Of a stretch of DNA of 64,000 nucleotides, positions 48,169-62,021 are shown in pieces. The stretch is from NCBI RefSeq assembly GCF_011326735.1, contig NZ_JAANCN010000001.1, positions 496,001 through 560,000 on the forward strand. The letters run 5' to 3'. Both the position numbers and the translations under genes were made by a program. The notes under the pieces are model-generated. The model saw only the letters and a list, made by a program, of their open reading frames with translations. It searched no databases and was not told where the DNA came from. Position 1 is the stretch's first letter. Every line of letters begins with the position of its first letter. This DNA is from Phycicoccus endophyticus (lineage in GTDB: Bacteria; Actinomycetota; Actinomycetes; Actinomycetales; Dermatophilaceae).

Positions 48169-48753
48169 GTGACGCGCAGCACCGTGACCGGGCGCGAGTC
48201 CCCGGAGTTCGCCCGGGCTCTCGAGGAGCTCCACCATGCGCGGCTGCGCCCGGAGCTGCGGCTCACCGAGGTGCCGGCGCCCCAGCGCATCGCCCCGCAC
48301 GCCGTGGCGATGACCGCCGACGTCCTCGACCCGCGCGACCCCGACGCCGAGCTGGCCTCCGGGCGGTTCGTCCTCCTCCACGACCCCGCGGCCCCCGAGC
48401 CCTGGGACGGCGAGTGGCGTGCGGTGACCTTCGCCCGGGCCGAGCTCGAGCCCGAGTTCGCCGCAGAGCCGCTGCTCGGCGAGGTCGGCTGGAGCTGGCT
48501 GACCGACGCCCTCGACGCCCGCGGGGTCCCCTTCGCCGCGGCCGCCGGGACGGTGACCCGGGTGGTCTCGGAGAGCTTCGGTGGCCTCGCCGACCGACCG
48601 GCCAGCGTCGAGATGGAGCTGCGCGCCTCGTGGACCCCCCTCGGCCCCGAGGTGGGCGAGCACCTGCTCGCATGGTCGGACCTGCTGTGCACCATCGCCG
48701 GGCTCCCCCCGCTCCCCGAGGGAGTCGTCGCGCTGCCCGGCCCCCGGCGGTGA
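48169..48753 (+). CDS. DUF3000 family protein
   Basis: The 194 aa protein follows the actinobacterial DUF3000 pattern: FARALEELHHARLRPELRLTEVPAPQR, IAPHAVAMTADV, GRFVLLHDP, and a C-terminal region with PASVEMELRASWTPLG. It always neighbours RNase D and heme genes in relatives. TACATT (48157-48162) lies 6 nt before the GTG (leaderless). No function is known. Confidence 0.88.
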   Translation: MTRSTVTGRESPEFARALEELHHARLRPELRLTEVPAPQRIAPHAVAMTADVLDPRDPDAELASGRFVLLHDPAAPEPWDGEWRAVTFARAELEPEFAAEPLLGEVGWSWLTDALDARGVPFAAAAGTVTRVVSESFGGLADRPASVEMELRASWTPLGPEVGEHLLAWSDLLCTIAGLPPLPEGVVALPGPRR

Positions 48754-48761
48754 CCTCCGGC

Positions 48762-50030
48762 ATGAGCACCCCCTCGGACCTGCCCGCGGGCGTGGACCCG
48801 GCCGGTGAGGACGTCCTCGCCGCCCCGCCGGTCCCACCGCAGGAGCCCGTCCCGCTCGAGGAGCCGGCCGACGGCGTCCCGCCCGTCGTCGAGACCGAGC
48901 GGGCGCTCCAGGAGGCCGCGCGGGCCGTGGCCCACGGTGTCGGGCCGTTGGCCATCGACGCCGAGCGGGCCTCCGGGTATCGCTACGGCCAGCGGGCCTA
49001 CCTGGTCCAGGTCCGTCGCGAGGGCTCGGGCACCTGGCTCGTCGACCCGATCGCCGTCCCGGACCTCGGCCCCCTCGACCAGGCCGTGGGAGCCGCCGAG
49101 TGGATCCTGCACGCCGCGACCCAGGATCTCGCCTGCCTCGCCGAGGTCGGCCTGCGCCCGCGCCAGCTGTTCGACACCGAGCTCGCCGGCCGCATCCTCG
49201 GCCTGCCCCGCGTCGGCCTCGCGGCCGTCGTCGAGCACTACCTCGGGCTGCGGCTGGCCAAGGAGCACTCCGCGGTCGACTGGTCCACCCGGCCGCTGCC
49301 GGAACCGTGGCTGCGGTACGCGGCGCTCGACGTCGAGGTCCTCGGCGAGCTGCGCAACCTCATGGGCGTCGACCTCGCGGCCCAGGGCAAGGACGAGTGG
49401 GCGCGCCAGGAGTTCGCCGCCCTCCTGTCGTGGGCGCCGACCGAGCGGGTCGACCCGTGGCGGCGCACCTCGGGGATCAACACGCTGCGCTCGCGCCGGG
49501 CCATCGGGGTGCTGCGCGAGCTCTGGTACACCCGGGACGCCATCGCCCGCGAGCGCGACACCTCCATCGGCCGGGTGCTGCCGGACACCGCGCTCGTCGA
49601 CATCGCCCGGGCCGCCCCCCGCGACCCCTCCGGGCTGCCGTCCGGGCACCGGGCGATCCGCCGCTACGCCCGCCAGTGGGTCGAGGCGGTCACCCGCGCG
49701 CTGGACCTGTCCGAGGAGGACCTGCCACCGCGCACGCTGCCCTCGGACGGTCCGCCGCCACCGCGGGTGTGGGCCGACAAGGACCCCGTGGCGGCGGCCC
49801 GGCTCGGGGCCACCCGGGCCGCGCTCACCGCGTTCGCCGAGGAGCACACGATCCCCGTCGAGAACGTCTGCTCCCCCGACCCGCTGCGCCGCGTCGTGTG
49901 GTCTCCCCCGGCCGAGCGCTCGGTCGAGGGGTTCGCCGCCGCGCTCCAGGGCCACGGCGTGCGGCGCTGGCAGGCCGAGATCGTCGCACCGCTGCTCGTC
50001 GCGGCCTTCGAGGCCCACCCGGACGCCTGA
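48762..50030 (+). CDS. Ribonuclease D-like 3'-5' exonuclease with HRDC domain
   Basis: The 422 aa protein has an acidic, proline-rich N-terminus (about 40 residues), a DEDDy exonuclease domain with LAIDAERASGYRYGQRAYLVQV, HAATQDLACL and LRYAALDVEVLGEL, and an HRDC domain around LRELWYTRDAIARERDTSIGRVLPD plus a second helical segment. It likely trims structured RNAs such as tRNA precursors. It begins 8 nt after DUF3000 on the same strand. Confidence 0.92.
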   Translation: MSTPSDLPAGVDPAGEDVLAAPPVPPQEPVPLEEPADGVPPVVETERALQEAARAVAHGVGPLAIDAERASGYRYGQRAYLVQVRREGSGTWLVDPIAVPDLGPLDQAVGAAEWILHAATQDLACLAEVGLRPRQLFDTELAGRILGLPRVGLAAVVEHYLGLRLAKEHSAVDWSTRPLPEPWLRYAALDVEVLGELRNLMGVDLAAQGKDEWARQEFAALLSWAPTERVDPWRRTSGINTLRSRRAIGVLRELWYTRDAIARERDTSIGRVLPDTALVDIARAAPRDPSGLPSGHRAIRRYARQWVEAVTRALDLSEEDLPPRTLPSDGPPPPRVWADKDPVAAARLGATRAALTAFAEEHTIPVENVCSPDPLRRVVWSPPAERSVEGFAAALQGHGVRRWQAEIVAPLLVAAFEAHPDA

Positions 50031-50046
50031 GGACCCCGCCCGCCCG

Positions 50047-50076
50047 TTGACATGCAAGCAGGCACTTGCATATGGT
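50047..50076 (+). promoter_or_regulatory. Promoter and operator of arsR-VOC
   Basis: TTGACA (50047-50052) and TATGGT (50071-50076), 18 bp apart, form the best consensus promoter in the window. The palindrome ATGCAAG (50052-50058) / CTTGCAT (50065-50071) fills the spacer. The predicted transcript start falls on the arsR GTG, so binding of ArsR here would block its own leaderless mRNA. Confidence 0.8.
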
Positions 50077-50082
50077 GACCGG

Positions 50083-50379
50083 GTGGACGACGGTGCCGAC
50101 GCGGTCTTCCGGGCCCTCGCCGACCCGACCCGGCGGGCCCTGCTCGACGCGCTGCTCGAGCGCGACGGGCAGACCCTCTTCGAGCTGTGCACCCGGATGG
50201 CCGACACGGGTGTCGGCTCGAGCCGACAGGCCATCTCCCAGCACATCGACGTGCTCGCCGGAGCCGGCCTGGTCCACGTGCGCCGCGAGGGGCGCTACCG
50301 GCTGCACGACCTCGACACCACCCCGCTGCACCCCCTACGCGAGCGCTGGCTGCGCGCCGAGAAGAGGAACCGACCATGA
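50083..50379 (+). CDS. ArsR-family transcriptional regulator
   Basis: The 98 aa winged-helix repressor has DAVFRALADPTRRALLDALLERDG and the recognition helix in SRQAISQHIDVLAGAGLVHVRREGRYRLH. It lacks the cysteine-rich metal site, so it is of the non-metal type often paired with glyoxalase-fold (VOC) proteins or START-domain proteins. The stop overlaps the VOC start (ATGA). Autoregulation is inferred from the promoter palindrome. Confidence 0.9.
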   Translation: MDDGADAVFRALADPTRRALLDALLERDGQTLFELCTRMADTGVGSSRQAISQHIDVLAGAGLVHVRREGRYRLHDLDTTPLHPLRERWLRAEKRNRP

Positions 50380-50768
50380 GGATCACCCGCACGAGCGTCT
50401 TCGTCGACGACCAGGCCAAGGCGCTGGAGGTCTACACCCGGCTGCTCGGCTTCGAGGTGCGCCACGACATCCCCCTCGGGGAGCACCGGTGGCTCACCGT
50501 CGTCAGCCCCGAGGAGCCCGACGGCGTCGAGGTCGTCCTCGAGCCGAACGAGCACCCGGCCGCGCGCGCCTTCACCGAGGCCCTCGCCGCCGACGGCATC
50601 CCCTCGACCTCGTTCACCGTCGACGACGTCGAGGCCGAGTACGACCGGCTCACCGGACTCGGGATGACCTTCACCCAGCCACCCACCCCGACCGGGCCGG
50701 TGGTCACCGCCGTCCTCGACGACACCTGCGGCAACCTCGTCCAGCTCGTGTCCGCAGCGCCGGCCTGA
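50376..50768 (+). CDS. VOC (glyoxalase-fold) family protein
   Basis: The 130 aa protein has the paired beta-alpha-beta pattern of VOC enzymes: TSVFVDDQAKALEVYTRLLGFEVR, LGEHRWLTVVSPEEPDG, FTVDDVEAEYDRLTGLGMTF and LDDTCGNLVQLV. Likely metal ligands are the histidine of EHRW and the C-terminal acidic residue. Such proteins give resistance to small electrophiles or act as binding proteins; here it is the target of its own ArsR partner. Confidence 0.88.
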   Translation: MRITRTSVFVDDQAKALEVYTRLLGFEVRHDIPLGEHRWLTVVSPEEPDGVEVVLEPNEHPAARAFTEALAADGIPSTSFTVDDVEAEYDRLTGLGMTFTQPPTPTGPVVTAVLDDTCGNLVQLVSAAPA

Positions 50769-50776
50769 CGCCGGTC

Positions 50777-51412
50777 TCAGCCGTAGAGGCCCGCCTCGTA
50801 CTGCTCCCCGTAGTAGGCGTCGAGCTGCTCGAGCGAGCGGCCGTCGGGCTCGACCTCGTGAGCGAGGACCGCCCGGCGTGGCACGCGCTCCTGGGGCGCC
50901 CAGGTCCCGGTGTCCCACAGCCGCGAGCGCAGGAACGCCTTGGAGCAGTGGAAGAAGACCTGCTCGACCTCGACGACGAGGGCGAGCACCGGGCGGTGGC
51001 CCCGCACGACCATCTCCTCGAAGAACGGGGCGTGCGAGACGAGCCGGGCGCGGCCGTTGACCCGCAGCGTGTCGCCCCGGCCGGGGATGACGAAGACCAG
51101 CCCGACGTGGGGGTTGTCGAGGACGTTGCGGTAGCCGTCGACTCGCCGGTTGCCGGGGCGCTCGGCGATGGCCAGGGTGCGCTCGTCGAGGACGTGGACG
51201 AGCCGTCCGGCGGGGTCGCCCTTGGGCGAGGCGTCGCAGGTGCCCTCCGGCCCGGCGGTCGCGAGGACGCAGAACGGCGAGGCGGCCAGCCACTCGCGGT
51301 CGACGTCGAGCAGCCGGTCCCGCTCCTTGTCCCGGGCCCTCGCCGTCGGCTCCCCGACGAGCGCCCCGAGGGCGGCCTCGTCCTCGACCACGGTCCACGT
51401 CGCGTCCTCCAC
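50777..51412 (-). CDS. PPOX-class FMN-dependent flavoprotein
   Basis: The 211 aa split-barrel protein (pyridoxamine-phosphate-oxidase-like, MSMEG_1061-type) has FCVLATAGPEGTCDASPKGDPAG, IAERPGNRRVDGYRNVLDNPHVGLVFVIPGRGDTLRVNG and FFHCSKAFLRSRLWD. It probably binds FMN and reduces or oxidises a small molecule. TACCCT (51425-51420) lies 7 nt before the GTG (leaderless). It is convergent with the VOC gene and divergent from fadA. Confidence 0.88.
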   Translation of the reverse strand: MEDATWTVVEDEAALGALVGEPTARARDKERDRLLDVDREWLAASPFCVLATAGPEGTCDASPKGDPAGRLVHVLDERTLAIAERPGNRRVDGYRNVLDNPHVGLVFVIPGRGDTLRVNGRARLVSHAPFFEEMVVRGHRPVLALVVEVEQVFFHCSKAFLRSRLWDTGTWAPQERVPRRAVLAHEVEPDGRSLEQLDAYYGEQYEAGLYG

Positions 51413-51428
51413 GCCCGCCAGGGTAGAG

Positions 51429-51450
51429 GGGCGTGAGGCCCCTCACGCCC
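51429..51450. promoter_or_regulatory. Perfect 10-bp-arm palindrome upstream of the PPOX gene
   Basis: Arms GGGCGTGAGG (51429-51438) and CCTCACGCCC (51441-51450) are separated by CC. It lies between the PPOX -10 box and fadA, and may be a regulator site for either gene. Confidence 0.5.
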
Positions 51451-51463
51451 ACCGCCGTCGACG

Positions 51464-51486
51464 ACTAAGCGCTCGCTTAGTACGAT
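51464..51486 (+). promoter_or_regulatory. TetR-type operator overlapping the fadA promoter
   Basis: ACTAAGCG (51464-51471) and CGCTTAGT (51474-51481) form a perfect 18-bp palindrome with a 2-bp spacer, whose last base begins the TACGAT box (51481-51486). The shape is that of TetR-family fatty-acid regulators. No regulator gene is adjacent, so control would be in trans. Confidence 0.6.
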
Positions 51487-51545
51487 CGCCGGTGTGCCCG
51501 GGGGTCCCCGGCACCCATCCGCACCCGACCAGGGAGGCCACCGAC

Positions 51546-52757
51546 GTGCCCCGTGAGCTCCAGGAGGTCGTCTTCGTCGACGGCGTCCGCACCCCGTTCG
51601 GCAAGGCGGGCGAGAAGGGCATGTACGCCCAGACCCGCGCCGACGACCTCGTCATCAAGTGCGTCCGCGAGCTGCTGCGCCGCCACCCCGAGCTGCCGCC
51701 GGAGCGGGTCGAGGAGGTCGCGGTCGCCGCGACCACCCAGATCGGCGACCAGGGCCTGACCCTCGGCCGGCTCACCGCCCTGCTCTCCGGCCTGCCGAAG
51801 AGCACCCCGGGGTACTCGGTGGACCGGATGTGCGCCGGGGCGATGACCGCGGTGACGAACGTGTCGGCGGCCATCGGCGTCGGCGCGATCGACGTGGCGA
51901 TCGCCGGCGGTGTCGAGCACATGGGCCGCCACCCGATGGGCGAGGGCGTCGACCCCAACCCGCGGATCGTCGCCGAGCGGCTCGTCGACGAGTCGGCGCT
52001 CGTCATGGGCAAGACCGCCGAGAACCTCCACGACCGCTTCCCCGCCCTGACCAAGGAGCGCTGCGACGCCTTCGCCGTCGGTAGCCAGCGCAAGCTCGCC
52101 GCCGCCTACGAGGCCGGCCGGGTCCAGCCCGACCTCGTGCCCGTCGCCACCCGGCACGTCGAGAAGGGCTGGGGCCTGGCCACCACCGACGAGCCGCCGC
52201 GCCCCGGGACGACGCTCGAGGAGCTGGCCGGCCTGAAGACACCGTTCCGCCCGCACGGCCACGTCACCGCGGGCAACGCCGCCGGCCTCAACGACGGGGC
52301 CACGGCGTGCCTGCTCGCGTCGCAGGCGGCAGCCGAGGAGCTCGGTCTGCCCGTCGCCATGCGCCTGGCGTCCTACGCGTTCGTCGGCGTCGAGCCGGAG
52401 GTCATGGGGGTCGGCCCGATCCCCGCGACCGAGAAGGCGCTCGCGAAGGCGGGCCTGGGCATCGAGGACATCGGGCTGTTCGAGCTCAACGAGGCCTTCG
52501 CCGTCCAGGTGCTCGCCTTCCTCGACCACTTCGGCATCGCCGACGACGACGAGCGGGTCAACCCGTGGGGTGGCGCCATCGCCACCGGGCACCCGCTCGC
52601 CTCCTCCGGGGTGCGGCTGATGACCCAGCTCGCCCGGCACTTCGAGGAGCACCCCGAGGTGCGCTACGGCCTCACCGCGATGTGCATCGGCATCGGGATG
52701 GGCGGCGCCGTCATCTGGGAGAACCCGCACCACGCGGACTACGGGAAGGACGCCTGA
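51546..52757 (+). CDS. fadA: Acetyl-CoA acetyltransferase, beta-oxidation thiolase
   Basis: The 403 aa thiolase has the nucleophile in VDRMCAGAMTA, ELNEAFAVQ, the GGAIATGHPLASSGVR loop and the final cysteine in AMCIGIGMGG. AGGGAGG lies before the GTG start. It pairs with the downstream fadB (3 nt gap) to form the trifunctional beta-oxidation unit. A palindrome overlaps its promoter at 51464-51481. Confidence 0.94.
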   Translation: MPRELQEVVFVDGVRTPFGKAGEKGMYAQTRADDLVIKCVRELLRRHPELPPERVEEVAVAATTQIGDQGLTLGRLTALLSGLPKSTPGYSVDRMCAGAMTAVTNVSAAIGVGAIDVAIAGGVEHMGRHPMGEGVDPNPRIVAERLVDESALVMGKTAENLHDRFPALTKERCDAFAVGSQRKLAAAYEAGRVQPDLVPVATRHVEKGWGLATTDEPPRPGTTLEELAGLKTPFRPHGHVTAGNAAGLNDGATACLLASQAAAEELGLPVAMRLASYAFVGVEPEVMGVGPIPATEKALAKAGLGIEDIGLFELNEAFAVQVLAFLDHFGIADDDERVNPWGGAIATGHPLASSGVRLMTQLARHFEEHPEVRYGLTAMCIGIGMGGAVIWENPHHADYGKDA

Positions 52758-52760
52758 GCC

Positions 52761-54884
52761 ATGACCACGACCACCCCGTCCCCCGCGATGCCCGCCGAGG
52801 TCGTCACCCGCACGCCCGTCCAGGACGTCGTCCTGCCCGGCGGCGCCGGCACCCTGGCCCTGGTCACGCTGGAGAACGGCAAGGACCACACCCGGCCGAC
52901 GACCTTCGGGCCGGAGGGCGTCGCCGGGCTCCAGGCCACCCTCGACGGGTTGCGCGCCCGCGCCAAGGCCGGCCAGGTCCAGGCCGTCGCCGTCACCGGC
53001 AAGCCGTTCGTCTTCGCCGTCGGCGCCGACCTCTCGGGCATCCCCTACGTCACCGAGCGCGCCCAGGCGGTCGAGATCGCCCGAGCCGGCCACCGGGCGT
53101 TCGCCACGCTCGCCGACCTGCCGGTCCCGACGTTCGCCTTCGTCAACGGTGCCGCGATGGGCGGTGGGGTCGAGCTCGCGCTCTCGGCCGACTACCGCAC
53201 CGTGTCCGCGGGCGTGCCGGCGTTCGGGCTGCCGGAGACCTTCCTCGGCCTGCTCCCCGGCTGGGGCGGCTGCTGGATGCTGCCGCACCTCGTCGGGCCC
53301 GAGGCGGCCCTGACGGTCATCGTCGACAACCCCCTGGCGAACAACCGGATGCTGCCGGCCCGGGACGTCGTGCGGCTCGGCGTCGGCGACGTCCTCCTCG
53401 AGCCCGCCGACTTCCTCGAGGACTCGCTGCGCTGGGCGGCCGGAGTGCTCACCGGCACCGTGCCGGTCGAGCGCACCCCGGTCGACCTGGAGGACGCCGA
53501 GACGTGGGAGGCGGCGTGCGACGCCGCCCGCACCCGCGCGCTGGCCAAGACGGCCGGCCGCTCCCCCGGCGTGCTGCGGGCCGTCGAGCTCGTGCGGGCC
53601 GCCCGGACCGCCAGCCGGGAGGCGGCCTTCGCCGCCGAGGACGAGGCGCTCGGCGACCTCATCATGTCCGACGAGCTGCGCGCCGGCCTCTACGCCTTCG
53701 ACCTGGTCCAGAAGCGGGCCAAGCGGCCGGCCGGTGCCCCGGACAAGGGCCTCGCCCGCCCGGTCACCAAGGTCGGCGTCGTCGGCGCCGGGCTGATGGC
53801 CAGCCAGCTCGCCCTCCTGTTCGCCCGCCGTCTCGGTGTGCCGGTCGTCATGACCGACCTCGACGAGGAGCGCGTGGCGCGGGGCGTCGGGTACGTCCAC
53901 CACGAGGTCGACCAGCTGCTCGCGAAGCGCCGCATCTCCCCCGACACCGCCTCGTTCCTCACGGGCCTGGTCACCGGCACGACGAGCAAGGACGGCTTCG
54001 CCGACGCCGACCTGGTCATCGAGGCGGTCTTCGAGGAGATGTCGGTCAAGCAGCAGGTGTTCGCCGAGGTCGAGGCGGTCGTGACGCCCGAGTGCGTCCT
54101 CGCGACCAACACCTCCTCGCTGTCGGTCACCGAGATGGCGAGCGGGCTGGCCCATCCCGAACGGGTCGTCGGGCTGCACTTCTTCAACCCGGTCGCCGTC
54201 ATGCCGCTGCTCGAGGTCATCCCCGGGGAGCGCACCGACGAGGCGACGCTCGCGACGGCCTTCGCCGTGGGCAAGGGCCTGAAGAAGACGTGCATCCGCT
54301 CCACGGACTCCGCGTCCTTCGTCGTCAACCGGCTGCTCGGCCGGTTCATGGGCGAGTACTCGCGGGTCGTCGACGAGGGCACCCCGGTCGAGGTCGCCGA
54401 CCGCGGCGTCGCCGGGCTGGCCCCGATGCCGCCATTCGTCCTGCTCGGGCTCGTCGGCCCGGCGATCGCCCTGCACAACAGCGAGACCCTGCACCGCGCC
54501 TTCGGCGACCGGTTCTTCGTCTCCCCCACCCTGCGGCGCCTCGTCGAGGCCGGCAAGCGCGGCTACTACGCGAGCGACGACACGGGCCGTCCGGTGCCCG
54601 ACCCGGAGGTCGACGCGCTGCGCGAGCGCCCGGAGAACCCCGTGGAGCTCACCGCCGAGGAGGTCCGCGAGCGGGTTCTCGGGGCCCTCGCCGAGGAGGT
54701 CGGGCTGATGCTCGCCGAGGGGGTCGTCCAGGCCCCCATGGACATCGACCTCGCGATGGTCACCGGCGCGGGGTTCCAGTTCTGGAACGGCGGGCTAGTG
54801 CCCCTGCTCGACCGCGAGGGCGTCACCGAGCGGGTCCTCGGGCGCCGCATCCTCCCGCACGGGGTGGCGAGCGTCCCGGCCTGA
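52761..54884 (+). CDS. fadB: Enoyl-CoA hydratase / 3-hydroxyacyl-CoA dehydrogenase
   Basis: The 707 aa two-domain enzyme carries an N-terminal crotonase domain (about 20-240) with NGAAMGGGVELALSADYR and the catalytic-type ETFLGLLPGWGG, then an NAD-binding domain KVGVVGAGLMASQLA (about 335), the HADH motif GLHFFNPVAVMPLLEV and a duplicated C-terminal dimer domain. It hydrates enoyl-CoA and oxidises the alcohol. Co-transcribed with fadA. A strong hairpin follows. Confidence 0.95.
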   Translation: MTTTTPSPAMPAEVVTRTPVQDVVLPGGAGTLALVTLENGKDHTRPTTFGPEGVAGLQATLDGLRARAKAGQVQAVAVTGKPFVFAVGADLSGIPYVTERAQAVEIARAGHRAFATLADLPVPTFAFVNGAAMGGGVELALSADYRTVSAGVPAFGLPETFLGLLPGWGGCWMLPHLVGPEAALTVIVDNPLANNRMLPARDVVRLGVGDVLLEPADFLEDSLRWAAGVLTGTVPVERTPVDLEDAETWEAACDAARTRALAKTAGRSPGVLRAVELVRAARTASREAAFAAEDEALGDLIMSDELRAGLYAFDLVQKRAKRPAGAPDKGLARPVTKVGVVGAGLMASQLALLFARRLGVPVVMTDLDEERVARGVGYVHHEVDQLLAKRRISPDTASFLTGLVTGTTSKDGFADADLVIEAVFEEMSVKQQVFAEVEAVVTPECVLATNTSSLSVTEMASGLAHPERVVGLHFFNPVAVMPLLEVIPGERTDEATLATAFAVGKGLKKTCIRSTDSASFVVNRLLGRFMGEYSRVVDEGTPVEVADRGVAGLAPMPPFVLLGLVGPAIALHNSETLHRAFGDRFFVSPTLRRLVEAGKRGYYASDDTGRPVPDPEVDALRERPENPVELTAEEVRERVLGALAEEVGLMLAEGVVQAPMDIDLAMVTGAGFQFWNGGLVPLLDREGVTERVLGRRILPHGVASVPA

Positions 54885-54899
54885 GCGCCGGACCGCTAC

Positions 54900-54934
54900 G
54901 GCGTCGGCCCGGGCCCAAGGGTCCGGGCCGTCGC
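54900..54934 (+). terminator. Terminator after fadB
   Basis: GGCG-T-CGGCCCGG pairs with CCGGGCCG-T-CGCC around a short loop with AAGGG; the stem lies about 15 nt after the fadB stop. No T-tract. Together with the murA-like promoter it separates the two transcripts. Confidence 0.75.
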
Positions 54935-54986
54935 CGCAGGTCAGGGGGCCGCCACCGGGCACCGGCGGGTGACCTGCCCGGCTGGC

Positions 54987-55014
54987 TTGGTTTATCTCAC
55001 ATGTGATCTACGAT
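54987..55014 (+). promoter_or_regulatory. Promoter of the HTH-MurA gene with TCACATGTGA palindrome
   Basis: TTGGTT (54987-54992) and TACGAT (55009-55014) form the promoter; the perfect 10-bp palindrome TCACATGTGA (54997-55006) fills the spacer, and the start GTG follows 6 nt after the -10 box. The encoded protein has an XRE domain, so autoregulation at this site is an obvious hypothesis. Confidence 0.65.
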
Positions 55015-55020
55015 GGTCCG

Positions 55021-56562
55021 GTGACGACGACCACCGACACGTACCTGACCCGCATCGGCACCCTCATCCGGGACGCCCGACGCCACCAGGGGCTCACCCA
55101 GAGCGAGCTCGCCGACGTCCTCGGGACGAGCCAGAGCGCGGTCGCGCGGATCGAGCAGGGCAAGCAGAACCTCTCGCTCGAGATGCTCGCCCGCGTCGGC
55201 GAGAAGCTCGACAGCGAGTTCGTCTCCCTCGGCCACTCCGGCCCCCAGCACCTGCGCATCGTCGGCGGGCGCAAGCTCTCCGGGTCCATCCCGGTCAAGA
55301 CGAGCAAGAACGCCGCCGTGGGTCTGCTGTGCGCGAGCCTGCTCAACCGCGGGCGCACGACGCTGCGCAACCTCGCGCGGATCGAGGAGGTCAACCGGAT
55401 CATCGAGGTGCTCACCTCGATCGGCGTGCGCGTGCGCTGGCTGCCCGACAGCAACGACCTCGAGGTCGTCCCGCCCGCGCGCCTGGACCTCGCCGGCATC
55501 GACGTCGACGCCGCCCGACGCACCCGCACCGTCATCATGTTCCTCGGCCCGCTGCTCGCCGAGTACGACGAGTTCCGCCTGCCCTACGCCGGCGGCTGCG
55601 ACCTCGGCACCCGCACCGTCGAGCCGCACCTGTCGGCGCTGCGGCACTTCGGCCTCGACGTCACCGCCACCCACGGCTTCTACGAGTCGGTCGTCGACCG
55701 CAGCCGGCACCCGAAGAAGGCGATCATCCTCACCGAGCGGGGCGACACCGTCACCGAGAACGTGCTGCTCGCCGCGGCCCGCTACGAGGGCACGACGGTC
55801 ATCCGCAACGCCTCCCCCAACTACATGGTCCAGGACCTGTGCTTCTTCCTCCAGGGTCTCGGGGTGCGCATCGAGGGCATCGGCACGACGACGCTGACGG
55901 TCACCGGGGTGGGCCAGGTCGACACCGACATCGAGTACTCCCCCTCGGAGGACCCCATCGAGGCGATGAGCCTCATCGCGGCCGCGGTCGTCACCGGCTC
56001 GATGATCACCGTGGAGCGGGTGCCGATCGAGTTCCTCGAGATCGAGCTGGCCACCCTCGAGGAGATGGGCCTGACCTTCGACACGACCGAGGAGTACCTC
56101 GCCCAGAACGGCCACACCCGGCTGGTCGACCTGACGATCCACCCCGGCCCGCTCGTCGCGCCGAAGGACAAGATCGCGCCGATGCCCTTCCCGGGCCTGA
56201 ACATCGACAACCTGCCCTTCTTCGCCCTCATCGCCGCCGTCGCCGAGGGCACGACGATGATCCACGACTGGGTCTACGAGAACCGGGCCATCTACCTCAC
56301 CGAGCTGACCAAGGTCGGTGCCCAGGTCCAGCTGCTCGACCCGCACCGGGTCATGATCACCGGGCCGACGCCGAAGTGGCGGGCCGCCGAGGTGATGTGC
56401 CCGCCGGCGCTGCGCCCCGGCGTCGTCGTCCTGCTCGCGATGCTCGCCGCCCCCGGGACCTCGGTGCTGCGCAACGTCTACGTCATCAACCGCGGCTACG
56501 AGGACCTCGCGGAGCGGCTCAACGCGCTCGGCGCGACGATCGAGACCTTCCGCGACATCTGA
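55021..56562 (+). CDS. HTH-XRE / MurA-like enolpyruvyl transferase fusion
   Basis: The 513 aa protein joins an XRE helix-turn-helix (about residues 11-65: LIRDARRHQGLTQSELADVL, TSQSAVARIEQGKQ) to a complete MurA-like EPT fold (about 78-513). MurA catalytic residues are kept: Lys-Asn of SKNAA (K96, N97), the PEP-site cysteine in AGGCDLGTR (C193) and its arginine (R198), and the aspartate in FPGLNIDNL. The ALRPG segment replaces the usual DLR. Classic MurA is about 420 aa and lacks the HTH. The protein may be a transcription factor sensing UDP-GlcNAc, an active MurA, or both. Confidence 0.85.
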   Translation: MTTTTDTYLTRIGTLIRDARRHQGLTQSELADVLGTSQSAVARIEQGKQNLSLEMLARVGEKLDSEFVSLGHSGPQHLRIVGGRKLSGSIPVKTSKNAAVGLLCASLLNRGRTTLRNLARIEEVNRIIEVLTSIGVRVRWLPDSNDLEVVPPARLDLAGIDVDAARRTRTVIMFLGPLLAEYDEFRLPYAGGCDLGTRTVEPHLSALRHFGLDVTATHGFYESVVDRSRHPKKAIILTERGDTVTENVLLAAARYEGTTVIRNASPNYMVQDLCFFLQGLGVRIEGIGTTTLTVTGVGQVDTDIEYSPSEDPIEAMSLIAAAVVTGSMITVERVPIEFLEIELATLEEMGLTFDTTEEYLAQNGHTRLVDLTIHPGPLVAPKDKIAPMPFPGLNIDNLPFFALIAAVAEGTTMIHDWVYENRAIYLTELTKVGAQVQLLDPHRVMITGPTPKWRAAEVMCPPALRPGVVVLLAMLAAPGTSVLRNVYVINRGYEDLAERLNALGATIETFRDI

Positions 56563-56634
56563 CCGGCGCGCCGCCCGGGGCCGGCGTCGTCCTCTCGGTG
56601 CCGCGCGAGAGCGTGTGCGCCGCGACGGCGAGCC

Positions 56635-57666
56635 TCAGCCGCCGGCGAGGGCGCGGGCGCGCTGGTCCACGCCCAGCTCGCCGTAGGGGTAGTCGGTGGC
56701 ACCGGGGTCGCTCGCCTCGTCGAGCGCCGCCCGCTCCTGGTCCGTCAGCTGCAGGTCGACGGCCGCGAGGTTGGTCCGCAGCTGGTCGGTCGTGCGCGCA
56801 CCGAGGATCGTCGCCGTGACCGCGGGACGGTTGTTGACCCAGGAGAGGGCGACCTCGGCCATCGAGCACCCGCGGCTCTCGGCGACCCGCTCCACGGCGT
56901 CGACGATGCGCCACGTGCGGTCGTTGCCCCGCCGGTCGTAGGCCTCCATGCCGCGTCCGGGGTCGTCGCCGAGGCGGGTGTCCCCCGTCGGCCGCTCGTC
57001 ACGCCGGTACTTCCCGGAGAGCCACCCACCCCCGAGCGGGCTCCACGGCAGCAGCCCCATGCCCGCGTCCAGCGCGGCCGGGACGATCTCCCACTCGATC
57101 TCCCGGACGACGAGGCTGTACTGCGGCTGCAGCGTGACCGGCTGCCGCAGCCCGAGGGCGCGGGCGGTGAGCACCGCCTTCGTCAGCTGCCAGCCGGTGA
57201 AGTTGGACAGGCCGTAGTAGTGGATCTTGCCGGCCTGGACGAACCCGTCGAGGGTGCGCAGCGTCTCCTCCATCGGGGTGTGCTCGTCGAAGGCGTGCAC
57301 CTGGTAGAGGTCGACGGCGTCGACGCCGAGCCGGCGCAGGGAGTCCTCGAGGGCGCGGGTGAGGTGGCGGGTCGAGAGGCCGTTGCCGTTGGGGCCCTGG
57401 TCGGTGGCGGCGAACCGGCCCTTGGTCGCGAGGACCACCCGGTCGGTGACCTCCCGCGGGCGGCTCCTCAGCCAGGCGCCGATGATCTCCTCCGAGACGC
57501 CCGCGGAGTAGACGTCGGCGGTGTCGACGAAGGTGCCGCCGGCCTCGAGGAAGACGTCGAGCTGCTCGTGCGCGCCGGCCTCGTCGGTCTCGTTCCCGAA
57601 GGTCATGGTCCCCAGGCAGAGCTCGGAGACGGCACATCCACTGTGGCCCAGACGTCGGTAGCGCAT
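56635..57666 (-). CDS. Aldo/keto reductase
   Basis: The 343 aa TIM-barrel NADPH reductase has the tetrad region DTADVYSAGVSEEI (Asp, Tyr), VLATKGRF (Lys) and YQVHAFDEH (His), plus GLSNFTGWQ and the C-terminal VAVTATILGARTTDQL cofactor loop. TAGGGT (57679-57674) lies 7 nt before the ATG (leaderless). The substrate is unknown. It sits between the MurA-like gene and dxs, as a single transcript. Confidence 0.92.
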   Translation of the reverse strand: MRYRRLGHSGCAVSELCLGTMTFGNETDEAGAHEQLDVFLEAGGTFVDTADVYSAGVSEEIIGAWLRSRPREVTDRVVLATKGRFAATDQGPNGNGLSTRHLTRALEDSLRRLGVDAVDLYQVHAFDEHTPMEETLRTLDGFVQAGKIHYYGLSNFTGWQLTKAVLTARALGLRQPVTLQPQYSLVVREIEWEIVPAALDAGMGLLPWSPLGGGWLSGKYRRDERPTGDTRLGDDPGRGMEAYDRRGNDRTWRIVDAVERVAESRGCSMAEVALSWVNNRPAVTATILGARTTDQLRTNLAAVDLQLTDQERAALDEASDPGATDYPYGELGVDQRARALAGG

Positions 57667-57723
57667 GGGGTCGACCCTAGCCCGGCGCCCCCGCAGCCGT
57701 CGGGTGAGCCGGGTGGGGTGACG

Positions 57724-59592
57724 TCAGCCGAGCCCGGCGCGCAGCCGGTCGGCCACGGCGTCGGGGGTGAGCCCGACGGCGTCGAGCACCTGGCCGCGCG
57801 AGGCGTGCTCGAGGAACTGCCGGGGCAGCCCGAAGAGGTCGACGGGGACCTCGACCCCCGCGTCGCGCAGGGCCTGGGTGACCTGGGAGCCGATGCCGCC
57901 GACGACGACGTTGTCCTCCGCGACGGCCACCCGCCGGGCCGCGCGCGCGAGCGACACGACGGCGTCCGGCACCGGCAGCGCCCAGACGGGGTCGACGACG
58001 CGGACCCGGTGCCCCTCGGCGGCCAGCTTCTCGGCGGCGGTGAGCGCGGTGGCGGCCATCGAGCCGACGCCGACGAGCAGGACCTCGACGTCGTCCTCGT
58101 CGGGCTCGGCGAGGACGTCGACACCCCCGACGGTGCGGACGGCCTCGACCGGCTCCGCGACGGTGCCCTTGGGGAAGCGGACGACCGAGGGCGCGTCGGC
58201 GATGGCCACCGCCTCGCGCACCGCCCGGGCCACCTGCTGGCCGTCGCGCGGCGCCGCGAGGTGCAGGCCGGGCACGACACCGCTGATCGACATGTCCCAC
58301 ATGCCGTGGTGCGAGGCTCCGTCCGGCCCGGTGACGCCCGAGCGGTCGAGCACGACGGTGACGCCCGCCCGGTGGAGCGCGCAGTCCATGAGCAGCTGGT
58401 CGAAGGCGCGGTTGAGGAAGGTCGCGTAGACCGCGACGACCGGGTGCAGCCCGGCGTAGGCGAGCCCGGCGGCCATCGTCAGGGCGTGCTGCTCGGCGAT
58501 GCCGACGTCGAAGGTGCGCTCGGGGAAGCGGCGGCAGAACGGCTCGAGCCCGACCGGGATCATCATCGCGGCGGTGATCGCCACGAGGTCCTCGCGCTCG
58601 CGCCCGAGCTGGACCATCGTGTCGGCGAACTCGTCGGTCCAGCTGCGCCCGGCGATCTCCAGCGGGAGCCCGGTCTCGGGGTTGATGACGCCGACGGCGT
58701 GGAACTGGTCACCCTCGTCGTTGACCGCGTGCTCGTAGCCGCGCCCCTTCTGGGTGATGACGTGGACGAGCACCGGGCCCCCGAAGGCCCGGGCCTTGCG
58801 CAGGGCCGCCTCGAGGGCCGGCTCGTCGTGCCCGTCGACCGGGCCGACGTACTTCAGGCCCAGGTCCTCGAACAACCCCTGGGGGGCGACGATGTCCTTG
58901 ATCCCCTTCTTGACGCCGTGCAGCGTCTCGTACATGGCACCGCCGACGTAGGGGGTGCGCGAGAGCGTGTGCTTGCCCCAGTCGAGGAAGCGCTCGTAGC
59001 CCTGGGTCGTGCGCAGGGTCGCGAGGTGGTCGGCGAGACCGCCCCGGGTCGGGGCGTAGGAGCGCTCGTTGTCGTTGACGACGATGACGAGCGGGAGGTC
59101 CTCCTCGGCCGCGATGTTGTTCAGGGCCTCCCAGGCCATCCCGCCGGTCAGCGCGCCGTCGCCGATGACCGCGACCGTGTGCCGGTCGCGCTCGCCCCGG
59201 ACCACCCGGCCCGCGGCGATGCCGTGCGCCCACGACAGGGAGGTCGAGGCGTGCGAGTTCTCGACGACGTCGTGCTCGGACTCGGCCCGGCTCGGGTAGC
59301 CGGCGAGGCCCCCGGCCCGGCGCAGCCCGGAGAAGTCGCGTCGCCCGGTGAGCAGCTTGTGGACGTAGGACTGGTGGCCGGTGTCGAAGACGACGGCGTC
59401 GTGCGGGCTGTCGAAGACCCGGTGCAGGGCGATGGTCAGCTCGACGACGCCGAGGTTCGGGCCGAGGTGGCCCCCGGTGCGCGAGACCTGCTCGACGAGG
59501 AAGGCCCGGATCTCCTCGGCGAGCGCGGGCAGCCGGTCCGCGGGGAGCGCCTTGAGGTCGCGGGGACCGCTGATCCGTTCCAGCAGGCTCAC
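57724..59592 (-). CDS. dxs: 1-deoxy-D-xylulose-5-phosphate synthase
   Basis: The 622 aa thiamine enzyme starts the MEP isoprenoid pathway from pyruvate and glyceraldehyde 3-phosphate. It shows [34 protein letters not shown], the ThDP motif [27 protein letters not shown] and the transketolase-like C-terminal region. AGGAGGT precedes the GTG start at a normal distance. Its neighbourhood with RNase D and heme genes is conserved. Confidence 0.96.
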
Positions 59593-59745
59593 CGGGCCTA
59601 CCTCCTCGTCGCTCGGGTCCGGGCCAACCCCGCAAGTCTAGGCGCTCGGGCCCGCCCGGCCCGCACCGCACGGGCCGTGGCCGGTGGCCTCCACGAGACC
59701 TCCGGACGGTCTCCAGGCGGGGCGCGACCCGGTCCTCGGGCCCGC

Positions 59746-60201
59746 TCACAGCCGCGGGACGAACTCCAGGCCCCGTAGCGCGTCCAGGAGGAGCCCGGCC
59801 GAGCGGCGCGCGGCGAGCAGCCGGACGCCCTCGCACTCGAGGTCGGCGAGCACCTGGGCGACCCCCTCGGGACCGATGTCCTCGCCGAGCGCGACCCGCA
59901 CCTCCCGGTAGGAGCCGCGCATCGCCTCGAGCTGGGCGTCGAGGTGGCGTACCGCGAACCAGCCGAGCGCGACCGGGTGGCGGCGCCAGGACGGGTAGAG
60001 CCGGTAGTCCGGCGGGCAGTGGTCGAACAGCCAGCCGACGGCCCGCTGCTCCCACCCCCGCTCCCCCGGCGGTGGGACACCCGGCGGCCAGCCGGGGGGA
60101 CCGCCGGCCCCCGTCGCCCCGGCGGTGGAGCGGCGCCGGGCCGGCGCGGCCGGGGTCGGGGCGCGCAGCGGGGGCCCGCCACCAACCACCTCCTCGAACA
60201 T
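59746..60201 (-). CDS. SOS-box-controlled conserved hypothetical protein
   Basis: The 151 aa protein has a proline/glycine-rich N-terminus (about 50 residues) and a helical C-terminal domain: WLFDHCPPDYRLYPSWRRHPVALGWFAVRHLDAQL and a final VAQVLADLECEGVRLLAARR...LEFVPRL. I recognise no named domain. The ATG at 60201 is favoured over an upstream reading because TACCAT (60214-60209) is 7 nt away. The SOS box TCGAAC-N4-GTTCGA (60209-60194) covers the -10 edge and the start codon, so LexA would block it directly. Role in the damage response is inferred from that site only. Confidence 0.75.
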   Translation of the reverse strand: MFEEVVGGGPPLRAPTPAAPARRRSTAGATGAGGPPGWPPGVPPPGERGWEQRAVGWLFDHCPPDYRLYPSWRRHPVALGWFAVRHLDAQLEAMRGSYREVRVALGEDIGPEGVAQVLADLECEGVRLLAARRSAGLLLDALRGLEFVPRL

Positions 60202-60209
60202 GTGTTCGA
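60194..60209 (-). promoter_or_regulatory. LexA (SOS) box
   Basis: TCGAAC followed by ATGT and GTTCGA (plus strand) matches the actinobacterial SOS box TCGAAC-N4-GTTCGA at every defined position; the arms are even 7-bp perfect (TCGAACA/TGTTCGA). It overlaps the start codon and transcription start of the gene at 59746-60201. Confidence 0.85.
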
Positions 60210-60251
60210 TGGTAACCCCGCTCGACCACATGGTGGACCCGGGATGCAGGA

Positions 60252-60271
60252 ATAACCTTGCGTTATAGATT
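60252..60271 (+). promoter_or_regulatory. Inverted repeat and -10 region upstream of the sulfite reductase operon
   Basis: ATAAC (60252-60256) and GTTAT (60262-60266) flank CTTGC, immediately followed by the -10-like TAGATT (60266-60271). It is AT-rich compared with its surroundings and about 45-60 nt before the start codon. It could be an operator for a sulfur-responsive regulator. Confidence 0.5.
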
Positions 60272-60314
60272 GCATGACGCCCAGTGATCCCCTACCCGTC
60301 CCGAGGACCCTGCG

Positions 60315-62021
60315 ATGACGACGACGGACCCGGCCTCCCGCGCCCTGCGGCCACCGCGCCCCGGGCGCAGCAACGGCCAGTGGGCGCTCGACGGCCGCAC
60401 GCCGCTGAACGCCAACGAGGAGGCCAAGCAGGCCGGGGGCGGGCTCGAGGTGCGTGAGCGCATCGAGACCGTCTACTCCCGCGAGGGCTTCGCCTCCATC
60501 CCCGCCGACGACCTCGACGGCCGGTTCCGGTGGTGGGGCCTGTACACCCAGCGCCGCCCGGGGATCGACGGCGGCCGCACCGCGACCCTCGAGCCACACG
60601 AGCTCGCCGACGAGTACTTCATGCTGCGGGTGCGCCTCGACGGCGGTGCGCTCACCCTCGCCCAGCTGCGCACCCTGGCCGAGATCTCCACCGAGTACGC
60701 CCGGGGCACCGCCGACATCAGCGACCGGCAGAACATCCAGTACCACTGGGTGCGGGTCGAGGACGTCCCGGAGATCTGGCGGCGGCTCGAGGCGGTGGGG
60801 CTGCAGACGACCGACGCCTGCGGCGACACCCCGCGCGTCGTCCTCGGCAGCCCGCTCGCCGGGATCGCCGCGGACGAGATCCTCGACCCGACCCCGGTCA
60901 TCGACGAGATCGTCTCCCGGTTCGTCGGCGACCCCGAGCTGCAGAACCTCCCCCGCAAGTTCAAGACCGCCGTCACCGGCCACCCGAGCCTCGACGTCGT
61001 CCACGAGACCAACGACATCTCCCTCGTCGGGGTCCTCCACCCCGAGCTCGGGCCGGGCTACGACCTGTGGGTGGGCGGCGGGCTCTCGACGGCTCCGCGG
61101 CTGGCCGAGCGGCTGGGCGCCTTCGTCCCGCCGGAGCGGGCGGCCGAGGTCTGGTACGCCGTCGTGCGGATCTTCCGGGACTACGGCTACCGCCGGCTGC
61201 GGACCAAGGCCCGCCTGAAGTTCCTCCTCGCCGAGTGGGGCGCCGCGAAGTTCCGCCGGGTCCTCGAGGAGAACTACCTCGGCACGCCCCTGCCGGACGG
61301 GCCCGCGCCCGCGGCCCCGACGACCCCGGGCGACCACGTCGGCGTCCACCGGCAGAAGGACGAGCGCTACTACGTCGGCGCGGCACCGACCGTCGGCCGG
61401 GTCAGCGGGGAGGTCCTCGCCGGGCTCGCCGAGCTCATGGCCGCCGCCGGCACCGACCGGCTGCGGCTGACGCCGCACCAGAAGCTCGTCGTCCTCGACG
61501 TGCCGGCCGAGCGGCTCGACGCGCTCGTCGAGGGGCTCACCGCCCTCGGGCTCTCGGTGCGCCCGAGCCCGTTCCGGCGCGCCACGATGGCGTGCACCGG
61601 CATCGAGTACTGCAAGCTGGCCATCGTCGAGACCAAGGCGACCGCGGCCGGGGCCGTCGCCGCGCTCGAGCAGCGGCTCGCGGACGTCACCGAGCAGCTG
61701 GCCACGCCGATCACGCTGCACGTCAACGGCTGCCCGAACTCCTGCGCCCGCATCCAGGTCGCCGACATCGGCCTCAAGGGCCAGATCGTCACCGTCGACG
61801 GCGAGCAGCGTCCGGGCTTCCAGGTCCACCTCGGGGGTGGGCTGGCCTCCACCGAGCGGGACGAGGCGGGCCTGGGCCGCACCGTGCGTGGCCTGAAGAC
61901 CACCGCCGAGGAGCTCCCCGACCTCGTCGAGCGGCTCGTGCGCCGGTTCGTCGACGCGCGGGCCGACGGCGAGAGCTTCTCCTCGTGGGTCCACCGCGCC
62001 GACGAGGAGGACCTGCGGTGA
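60315..62021 (+). CDS. Ferredoxin-dependent sulfite (or nitrite) reductase
   Basis: The 568 aa siroheme/4Fe-4S protein has the duplicated ferrite-reductase fold with cluster cysteines in CTGIEYCK and NGCPNSCARIQ. YTQRRPG and DACGDTPR correspond to the Tyr-Cys cross-link pair of mycobacterial SirA. Electrons come from ferredoxin. Nitrite is a possible substrate by sequence, but the overlap with cysH and the siroheme gene make sulfite reduction much more likely. GAGG precedes the ATG. Confidence 0.92.
   Translation: MTTTDPASRALRPPRPGRSNGQWALDGRTPLNANEEAKQAGGGLEVRERIETVYSREGFASIPADDLDGRFRWWGLYTQRRPGIDGGRTATLEPHELADEYFMLRVRLDGGALTLAQLRTLAEISTEYARGTADISDRQNIQYHWVRVEDVPEIWRRLEAVGLQTTDACGDTPRVVLGSPLAGIAADEILDPTPVIDEIVSRFVGDPELQNLPRKFKTAVTGHPSLDVVHETNDISLVGVLHPELGPGYDLWVGGGLSTAPRLAERLGAFVPPERAAEVWYAVVRIFRDYGYRRLRTKARLKFLLAEWGAAKFRRVLEENYLGTPLPDGPAPAAPTTPGDHVGVHRQKDERYYVGAAPTVGRVSGEVLAGLAELMAAAGTDRLRLTPHQKLVVLDVPAERLDALVEGLTALGLSVRPSPFRRATMACTGIEYCKLAIVETKATAAGAVAALEQRLADVTEQLATPITLHVNGCPNSCARIQVADIGLKGQIVTVDGEQRPGFQVHLGGGLASTERDEAGLGRTVRGLKTTAEELPDLVERLVRRFVDARADGESFSSWVHRADEEDLR

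Follow-up and report, generated by a model that had tools for sequence, protein, structure and literature searches.

An XRE-type helix-turn-helix (HTH) DNA-binding domain and a UDP-GlcNAc enolpyruvyl transferase (MurA) fold share one chain, here called XRE-MurA, encoded at positions 55021 to 56562 on the forward strand of the window (the whole 64,000-nucleotide stretch of DNA that was analyzed; 513 aa, GTG start). We consider it probable that XRE-MurA functions as a MurA and also represses the promoter of its own gene; a matching DNA switch kept in front of its own gene suggests an enzyme that may set its own level. The computed basis for this reading consists of the domains, the catalytic residues, the lack of any other MurA match in the host genome, an operator that is both conserved and exclusive, and the covariation of this operator with the recognition helix. 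In many actinobacteria, Streptomyces included, a MurA with its own DNA-binding domain appears to read its own promoter. A preliminary description of this DNA had proposed a transcription factor linking cell-wall precursor supply to gene expression; the scope is narrower than proposed there, being one protein and one site, and the finding is real and stronger, with a conserved candidate operator at the protein's own promoter and matching changes in the predicted recognition helix.

Domain composition and active site of XRE-MurA

The ORF finder placed the start of XRE-MurA at GTG 55003, inside the conserved operator. In nearly all XRE-MurA relatives, the start codon lies 27 to 31 bases past the operator's first base; two loci (L133 and L135) have no in-frame start codon until ∼146 nt downstream of the operator site. 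Because GTG 55003 sits within the operator and GTG 55021 matches the spacing seen in relatives, the latter is most likely the start. The XRE/HipB-type HTH domain spans residues 16 to 65 (55066–55215, forward strand), where HTH_3 (PF01381) matched with 49.2 bits against a cut-off of 23. The best HTH model listed was TIGR03070 (HipB/Y4mF), yet its match was below cut-off (54.9 versus 71.65 bits). Family models, alignment, and Foldseek assigned residues 77 to 510 (55249–56550, forward strand) to the MurA fold, with EPSP_synthase (PF00275) matching residues 82 to 500 at 163 bits (cut-off 22.8). The NCBIfam model NF006873 (MurA subfamily) was exceeded (333.8 versus a cut-off of 297), and the strict MurA equivalog TIGR01072 fell short (316.1 versus 392.7 bits); as judged by these profiles, XRE-MurA is a member of the MurA subfamily outside the strict equivalog.

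An AlphaFold2 model, built on a 41-row alignment, had a mean pLDDT of 85.3 and a pTM of 0.79 and contained four HTH helices (residues 2–22, 27–34, 38–45, and 53–62), the third of which is the predicted recognition helix (55132–55155, forward strand), whose residues 39 and 42 vary together with the operator. Confidence was low in the linker (65–73) and in the loops at 194–198, adjoining Cys193, and 488–491; MurA is known to have a mobile loop at the fosfomycin-site cysteine. When Foldseek was run with this model, solved MurAs ranked first, with TM scores by target length of 0.85 to 0.92 in the best 43 rows.

The active-site residues Lys96, Asn97, Arg169, Cys193, Arg198, Asp396, Arg422, Arg465, and Arg491 are all present and correspond, we assume, to Lys22, Asn23, Arg91, Cys/Asp115, Arg120, Asp305, Arg331, Arg371, and Arg397 of Escherichia coli MurA. 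These nine are invariant in 234 of 234 distinct XRE-MurAs, among them the aligned Lys96-Asn97 pair (codons at 55306–55311, forward strand) and Cys193, the equivalent by alignment of the PEP/fosfomycin-site Cys115 (codon at 55597–55599, forward strand). With HTH_3, EPSP_synthase, and the nine residues found together, the claim that an XRE domain and a catalytically equipped MurA fold occupy one chain is borne out. Canonical MurAs (TIGR01072) share the fold, and their active-site set is identical in the 24 aligned except for Cys/Asp at 193; they differ in being without an HTH and in forming a separate group. The MurA part of XRE-MurA is 27 to 32% identical to these 24 proteins, and XRE-MurA is its own group (support 100) in a tree of 23 XRE-MurA and 24 canonical rows. 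At position 462, beside an alignment gap, all 24 canonical MurAs have Asp where all 23 XRE-MurAs have Pro, a warning that the kinetics of XRE-MurA may differ.

An Asp115-type residue is found in some canonical MurAs, whereas XRE-MurA always has Cys: the fosfomycin-site residue is Asp in 9 of the 24 canonical MurAs of relatives (loci L006–L029) and Cys in all 234 XRE-MurAs. From this Cys, XRE-MurA is predicted to be a fosfomycin-sensitive target in genomes that have it alone. None of the five neighbors of XRE-MurA covered by a model scan (48414–62021 of the window) is a cell-wall gene; they are ribonuclease D-like (48414–50030), FadJ/FadB-like (52761–54884), aldo-keto reductase-like (56635–57666), and nitrite/sulfite reductase-like (57724–59592), all with matches below the model cut-off, and dxs (60315–62021), with a match over it.

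Distribution of XRE-MurA and canonical MurA

A PF00275 search of the host genome (3.18 Mb, completeness 100, 21 contigs) returned two genes, XRE-MurA and one (C3) that reads as AroA from its LPGSKSLTNR motif, recognized by eye. No further MurA was found there by PF00275 or TIGR01072 (E up to 10), searches which a too divergent MurA would escape. With no other MurA match in the host genome, the possibility that XRE-MurA is a duplicate of a housekeeping MurA was rejected. To the preliminary description, a sole murA with a dispensable HTH of no regulatory effect would have spoken against its idea; the first half appears true, as no separate murA was found in the host genome, and the second is unlikely because the operator is conserved.

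Among 58 relatives, 34 had the XRE-MurA class only, with no match above the TIGR01072 cut-off, a count that takes in one 89% complete genome (G047) with XRE-MurA split over two contigs and seen as a profile match only. The other 24 had a match over this cut-off, nine of them together with XRE-MurA and 15 with canonical MurA alone. In 80 further genomes, picked for having XRE-MurA, 45 also exceeded the TIGR01072 cut-off and 35 did not, the latter including G136, whose gene is split in two frames. By family, canonical MurA occurred along with XRE-MurA in all 21 f37 genomes of these 80, both kinds were found in 14 of 14 f38 genomes, and XRE-MurA was alone in 30 of 33 f45 genomes. We take f37 to be Streptomyces because one of its genomes (G417) shows the operator context of L167, and f45 to be Nocardioidaceae because G358 shows that of Mumia quercus L163.

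These distributions bear on whether the MurA domain might serve only as a sensor, making the protein a pure regulator rather than the cell's MurA. The low identity to canonical MurA, the score below the TIGR01072 cut-off, the Pro for Asp in all 23 XRE-MurAs compared, and the canonical MurA accompanying XRE-MurA in all 21 Streptomyces genomes would fit a sensor, but the invariance of the nine active-site residues (234/234) and the finding of no MurA besides it in 34 of the 58 relatives and in 35 of the 80 genomes picked for having it argue for an enzyme, and we regard a sensor-only role as very unlikely.

A survey of 394 genomes of the class, in which at most three candidates were scored per genome and matches were listed down to ∼201 bits, gave at least 111 intact full-length matches (854–1005 bits, hand count). 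At least three split XRE-MurAs (G136, G261, and G349) were among the matches listed; in G136, where no other MurA match was found, the split is likely a sequencing error. A sister group without the HTH was considered and rejected, the other listed matches scoring at most ∼230 bits and starting at profile position 33 or later. In a sample of the phylum, 12 of 296 genomes matched at 1e-100, and since all 12 belong to the window's own class, an occurrence beyond that class was ruled out within this sample. In the host family, 166 of 186 genomes had a match at 1e-200; in one genus of this family (g47; G103, G360, and G824–G832), none of the 11 genomes searched had a match at this threshold.

The candidate operator and its promoter

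Directly before the XRE-MurA gene lies an 18-bp palindrome, TATCTCACATGTGATCTA (54993–55010, without strand), which is a candidate operator; 230 of the 234 distinct XRE-MurA genes are preceded by it. Its right arm provides the first two bases of a −10 box, TACGAT (TAnnnT; 55009–55014, forward strand), and the start codon follows 6 nt beyond this box, so the mRNA would be leaderless. The last T of the −10 box is present in 203 of 209 rows; its leading TA is present in 209 of 209 by row selection. A −35-like TTGGTT (54987–54992, forward strand) is without conservation in relatives. It had been proposed that a 10-bp palindrome lies between the −35 and −10 boxes of the gene's own promoter. The palindrome is real and is in the promoter, but the element measures 18 bp, its right arm overlaps the −10 box, and the −35-like hexamer is not conserved.

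The 10-mer itself, TCACATGTGA (54997–55006), occurs once in the 3.18-Mb host genome. Within the window, allowing up to one mismatch, there was 1 match versus 0.31 expected and at least one match in 27 of 100 shuffles, so the 10-mer alone, being near chance, was discarded as evidence. The palindrome is significant because it is conserved among relatives, the window statistics alone being weak. Of the first 42 genes compared, 40 carry the consensus TATCTCA-yATr-TGAKnTA, in which positions 1, 3–6, 11–13, 16, and 17 are invariant (the first base of the 18-mer being position 0). The operator is followed by nnnT, completing a TAnnnT −10 box, and in most of these 40 genes by a start codon 6 to 7 nt on; the 22 positions upstream of the operator hold at most 0.56 bits each. 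In a census of 274 loci, from which 40 were left out for having a protein identical to another, 230 of 234 distinct proteins had the operator, which was 18 bp long in 214 cases and longer by 2 bp in 16. The XRE-MurA frame stays open in the four genes without an operator.

The longer form, with its 2 additional bases in the center, read ATCTCATATATGTGATCTA in 16 of 16 such rows (L125, L128, L131, L141, L266, L277, L280, L282, L290, L292, L298, L299, L301, L305, L307, and L317), with the recognition helix TSQSAVA unchanged. The four rows that are named belong to Ornithinimicrobium and Serinicoccus, and the smallest tree clade holding all 16 contains 27 rows.

A dimer seated on the operator would occupy the spacer together with the first bases of the −10 box, which makes repression by occlusion the most likely effect. 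An operator overlapping the −10 box is typical of occlusion, and the autoregulation known for HipB is repression. The same promoter could be read as one that XRE-MurA activates, or at which it switches between activation and repression: the site lies in the promoter spacer, its distance to the start codon is near-fixed, and no −35 is conserved in the 40 genes in which the operator and −10 box are, for which reason activation is conceivable. We think this unlikely, given the overlap of the right operator arm with the −10 box, the open frame kept in the four operator-less genes, and the behavior of HipB, the best-matching characterized HTH and operator type, which autoregulates its own operon according to the accessible part of its description (PMC3376134).

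Covariation and exclusivity of the operator

A phmmer alignment set query residues 13 to 50 on residues 3 to 40 of the 434 repressor chain, so that residues 38, 39, and 43 correspond to 28, 29, and 33, which presumably contact bases. The covariation table held 229 of the 234 rows (L055, L063, L126, L310, and L329 were left out). Thr or Gly occupies residue 42 in 20 of these, each of them with AACTCA..TGAGTT, i.e., A at position 2 and T at position 15, a pair of changes found in 0 of the 209 other rows; the 16 longer operators, none of them among the 20, were read in the 18-bp register, in which their position 15 is not comparable. The left-arm change alone (A at position 2) occurs in 1 of the 209 rows, L104, with His42. 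Residue 39 is Gly in 17 rows, all within the 20. A tree of the MurA part alone shows 8 changes at residue 42 and 9 at operator position 2. For residue 42, 8 pairs are possible on the best tree and only 3 lie on supported branches, where 3 of 3 agree (p = 0.25); for residue 39, an average of 2.9 among the 5 supported pairs agree, and 2.1 lack an operator difference. A smaller tree run gave 2 supported pairs. Judged on these alignments, the covariation of operator and recognition helix is strong and, because the tree test is short of significance, not proven.

The genus g20, with four genomes, offers a further comparison: L238 and L252, with the operator, keep TSQSAV, and L055 and L310, without it, have helices altered to TQPSAV and TTESTV. 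In L063 and L126, the operator is lost and the recognition helix is intact, which we counted against the autorepressor reading. This pair would also suit another regulator reading the operator, with the HTH of XRE-MurA kept as a relic or for oligomerization only. That explanation is highly improbable: the operator covaries with residues 39 and 42, operator and helix are lost or altered together in g20, and the operator site is missing from all 80 genomes without XRE-MurA. On the tree, L063 and L126 are near neighbors of L120, in which the operator is degenerate and the helix likewise intact, and the genome of L063 (G015) also carries a canonical MurA.

A wider set of targets upstream of cell-wall genes had been suggested for the palindrome, and this suggestion found no support. 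The host genome held no second operator site, even when as many as 3 of the 18 positions were allowed to differ. The pattern ATCTCANATNTGAKNTA matched exactly in 53 of 78 XRE-MurA genomes (chosen for having the gene, as relatives or from the class survey, and not random draws), and 64 of 64 exact-match rows, in which palindromes count twice, lay directly upstream of XRE-MurA; the reversed-pattern control gave 0. Among the 25 genomes lacking an exact match are operator-less ones and ones whose variant operator falls outside the pattern (e.g., L038 and L045). No exact match was found in the 80 genomes without XRE-MurA, which were chosen for showing no full-length match and likewise are not random draws.

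When up to 2 mismatches were allowed in 45 genomes, 76 sites were obtained, 43 at XRE-MurA and 33, with 1 to 2 mismatches, elsewhere (hand count), against 1 site for the reversed pattern. These 33 sites could be taken for a wider regulon of cell-wall genes under XRE-MurA. Base composition at 68 to 74% GC predicts 18 to 68 such sites, and a dinucleotide model of the loci predicts 147 with the pattern as it stands but 17 with the pattern reversed, so that the reversed-pattern control gives too low an estimate of chance; since the 33 weak sites fall within the composition expectation, no regulon is needed to explain them. With exact matches all located at XRE-MurA and the host genome without an extra site, a global cell-wall regulator was rejected, and we consider a wider role barely credible. 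The transcription factor proposed at the outset likely has its own operator as its cognate site, as conservation, specificity, and covariation indicate, and other cell-wall genes are not supported as its targets.

Proposed autoregulation and relation to known systems

In the reading that we favor, XRE-MurA would be an active MurA, the only one found in its host, and would also repress the gene that encodes it. Two N-terminal XRE domains would sit together on the 18-bp palindrome, which precedes and overlaps the −10 box, and block RNA polymerase; in this way, the amount of the enzyme for the first committed step of peptidoglycan synthesis would be kept at a set level. Catalytic activity, dimer binding, repression upon binding, and any substrate effect on binding are what we infer from the computed features. 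By analogy, XRE-MurA might sense UDP-GlcNAc or PEP, as the preliminary description had suggested. We propose more tentatively, as a possibility that we lean against, that the repressor is gated by substrate, so that a sole MurA would couple entry into peptidoglycan synthesis to precursor supply with no other regulator. The open, idle enzyme would bind the operator; once it closed on UDP-GlcNAc and PEP, or was trapped by fosfomycin, its HTHs would shift out of register and the gene would be derepressed. Such a one-protein, one-site feedback loop, which comes with a natural series of operator/recognition-helix pairs, would make it possible to test directly if transcription can be gated by the substrate state of an enzyme.

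Control of MurA in E. coli, Bacillus, and mycobacteria involves feedback inhibition, proteolysis, and CwlM. BirA, PutA, and NadR are autoregulating or trigger enzymes, which combine an enzyme and DNA binding in one chain and regulate their own pathway. XRE-MurA would resemble them in this arrangement, and none of the three is a MurA; no peptidoglycan trigger enzyme was found in the literature searched. The proposed autoregulation would place XRE-MurA among the autoregulating trigger enzymes. NF006015 matched XRE-MurA over the HTH only; this model, we assume, describes XRE regulators of benzoate catabolism fused to a shikimate-kinase fold, in which the enzyme fold is a ligand sensor. The fusion of an XRE domain to a biosynthetic enzyme fold is alike in the two, whereas XRE-MurA has a complete set of catalytic residues and in many genomes is the sole copy that was found.

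The closest parallel in DNA recognition is HipB of the E. coli hipBA system, which, in the part of its description accessible, binds TATCC-N8-GGATA cooperatively and autoregulates (PMC3376134). The operator geometry is the same, with 5-bp arms 8 bp apart (TATCT-N8-AGATA in the symmetrical form for XRE-MurA), and HTH type and autoregulation, the latter proposed for XRE-MurA, are alike across the HipB/TIGR03070 XRE family. HipB differs in being a small protein of its own, the antitoxin to a kinase toxin, whereas the HTH of XRE-MurA is fused to a biosynthetic enzyme and matches TIGR03070 below cut-off. The preliminary description knew of no functional account of such a protein, and our search agrees: no functional description of an HTH-MurA was found in the literature searched, which included the accessible parts of PMC4255298 and PMC9239103 and covered few subscription journals.

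MurA2 of Streptomyces coelicolor, SCO5998, is presumably an orthologue of XRE-MurA. An attempt to identify the Streptomyces locus L160 as SCO5998 by its neighbors was abandoned, as no aconitase model matched at 1e-20 among four frames, XRE-MurA itself included. The accessible parts of two accounts of SCO5998 (PMC12161575, PMC8346170) make no mention of an HTH or an operator; the first calls it MurA2, counts it as one of two UDP-GlcNAc transferases, and places a predicted DmdR1 site close by (PMC12161575), and the second reports a SigB-dependent promoter (PMC8346170).
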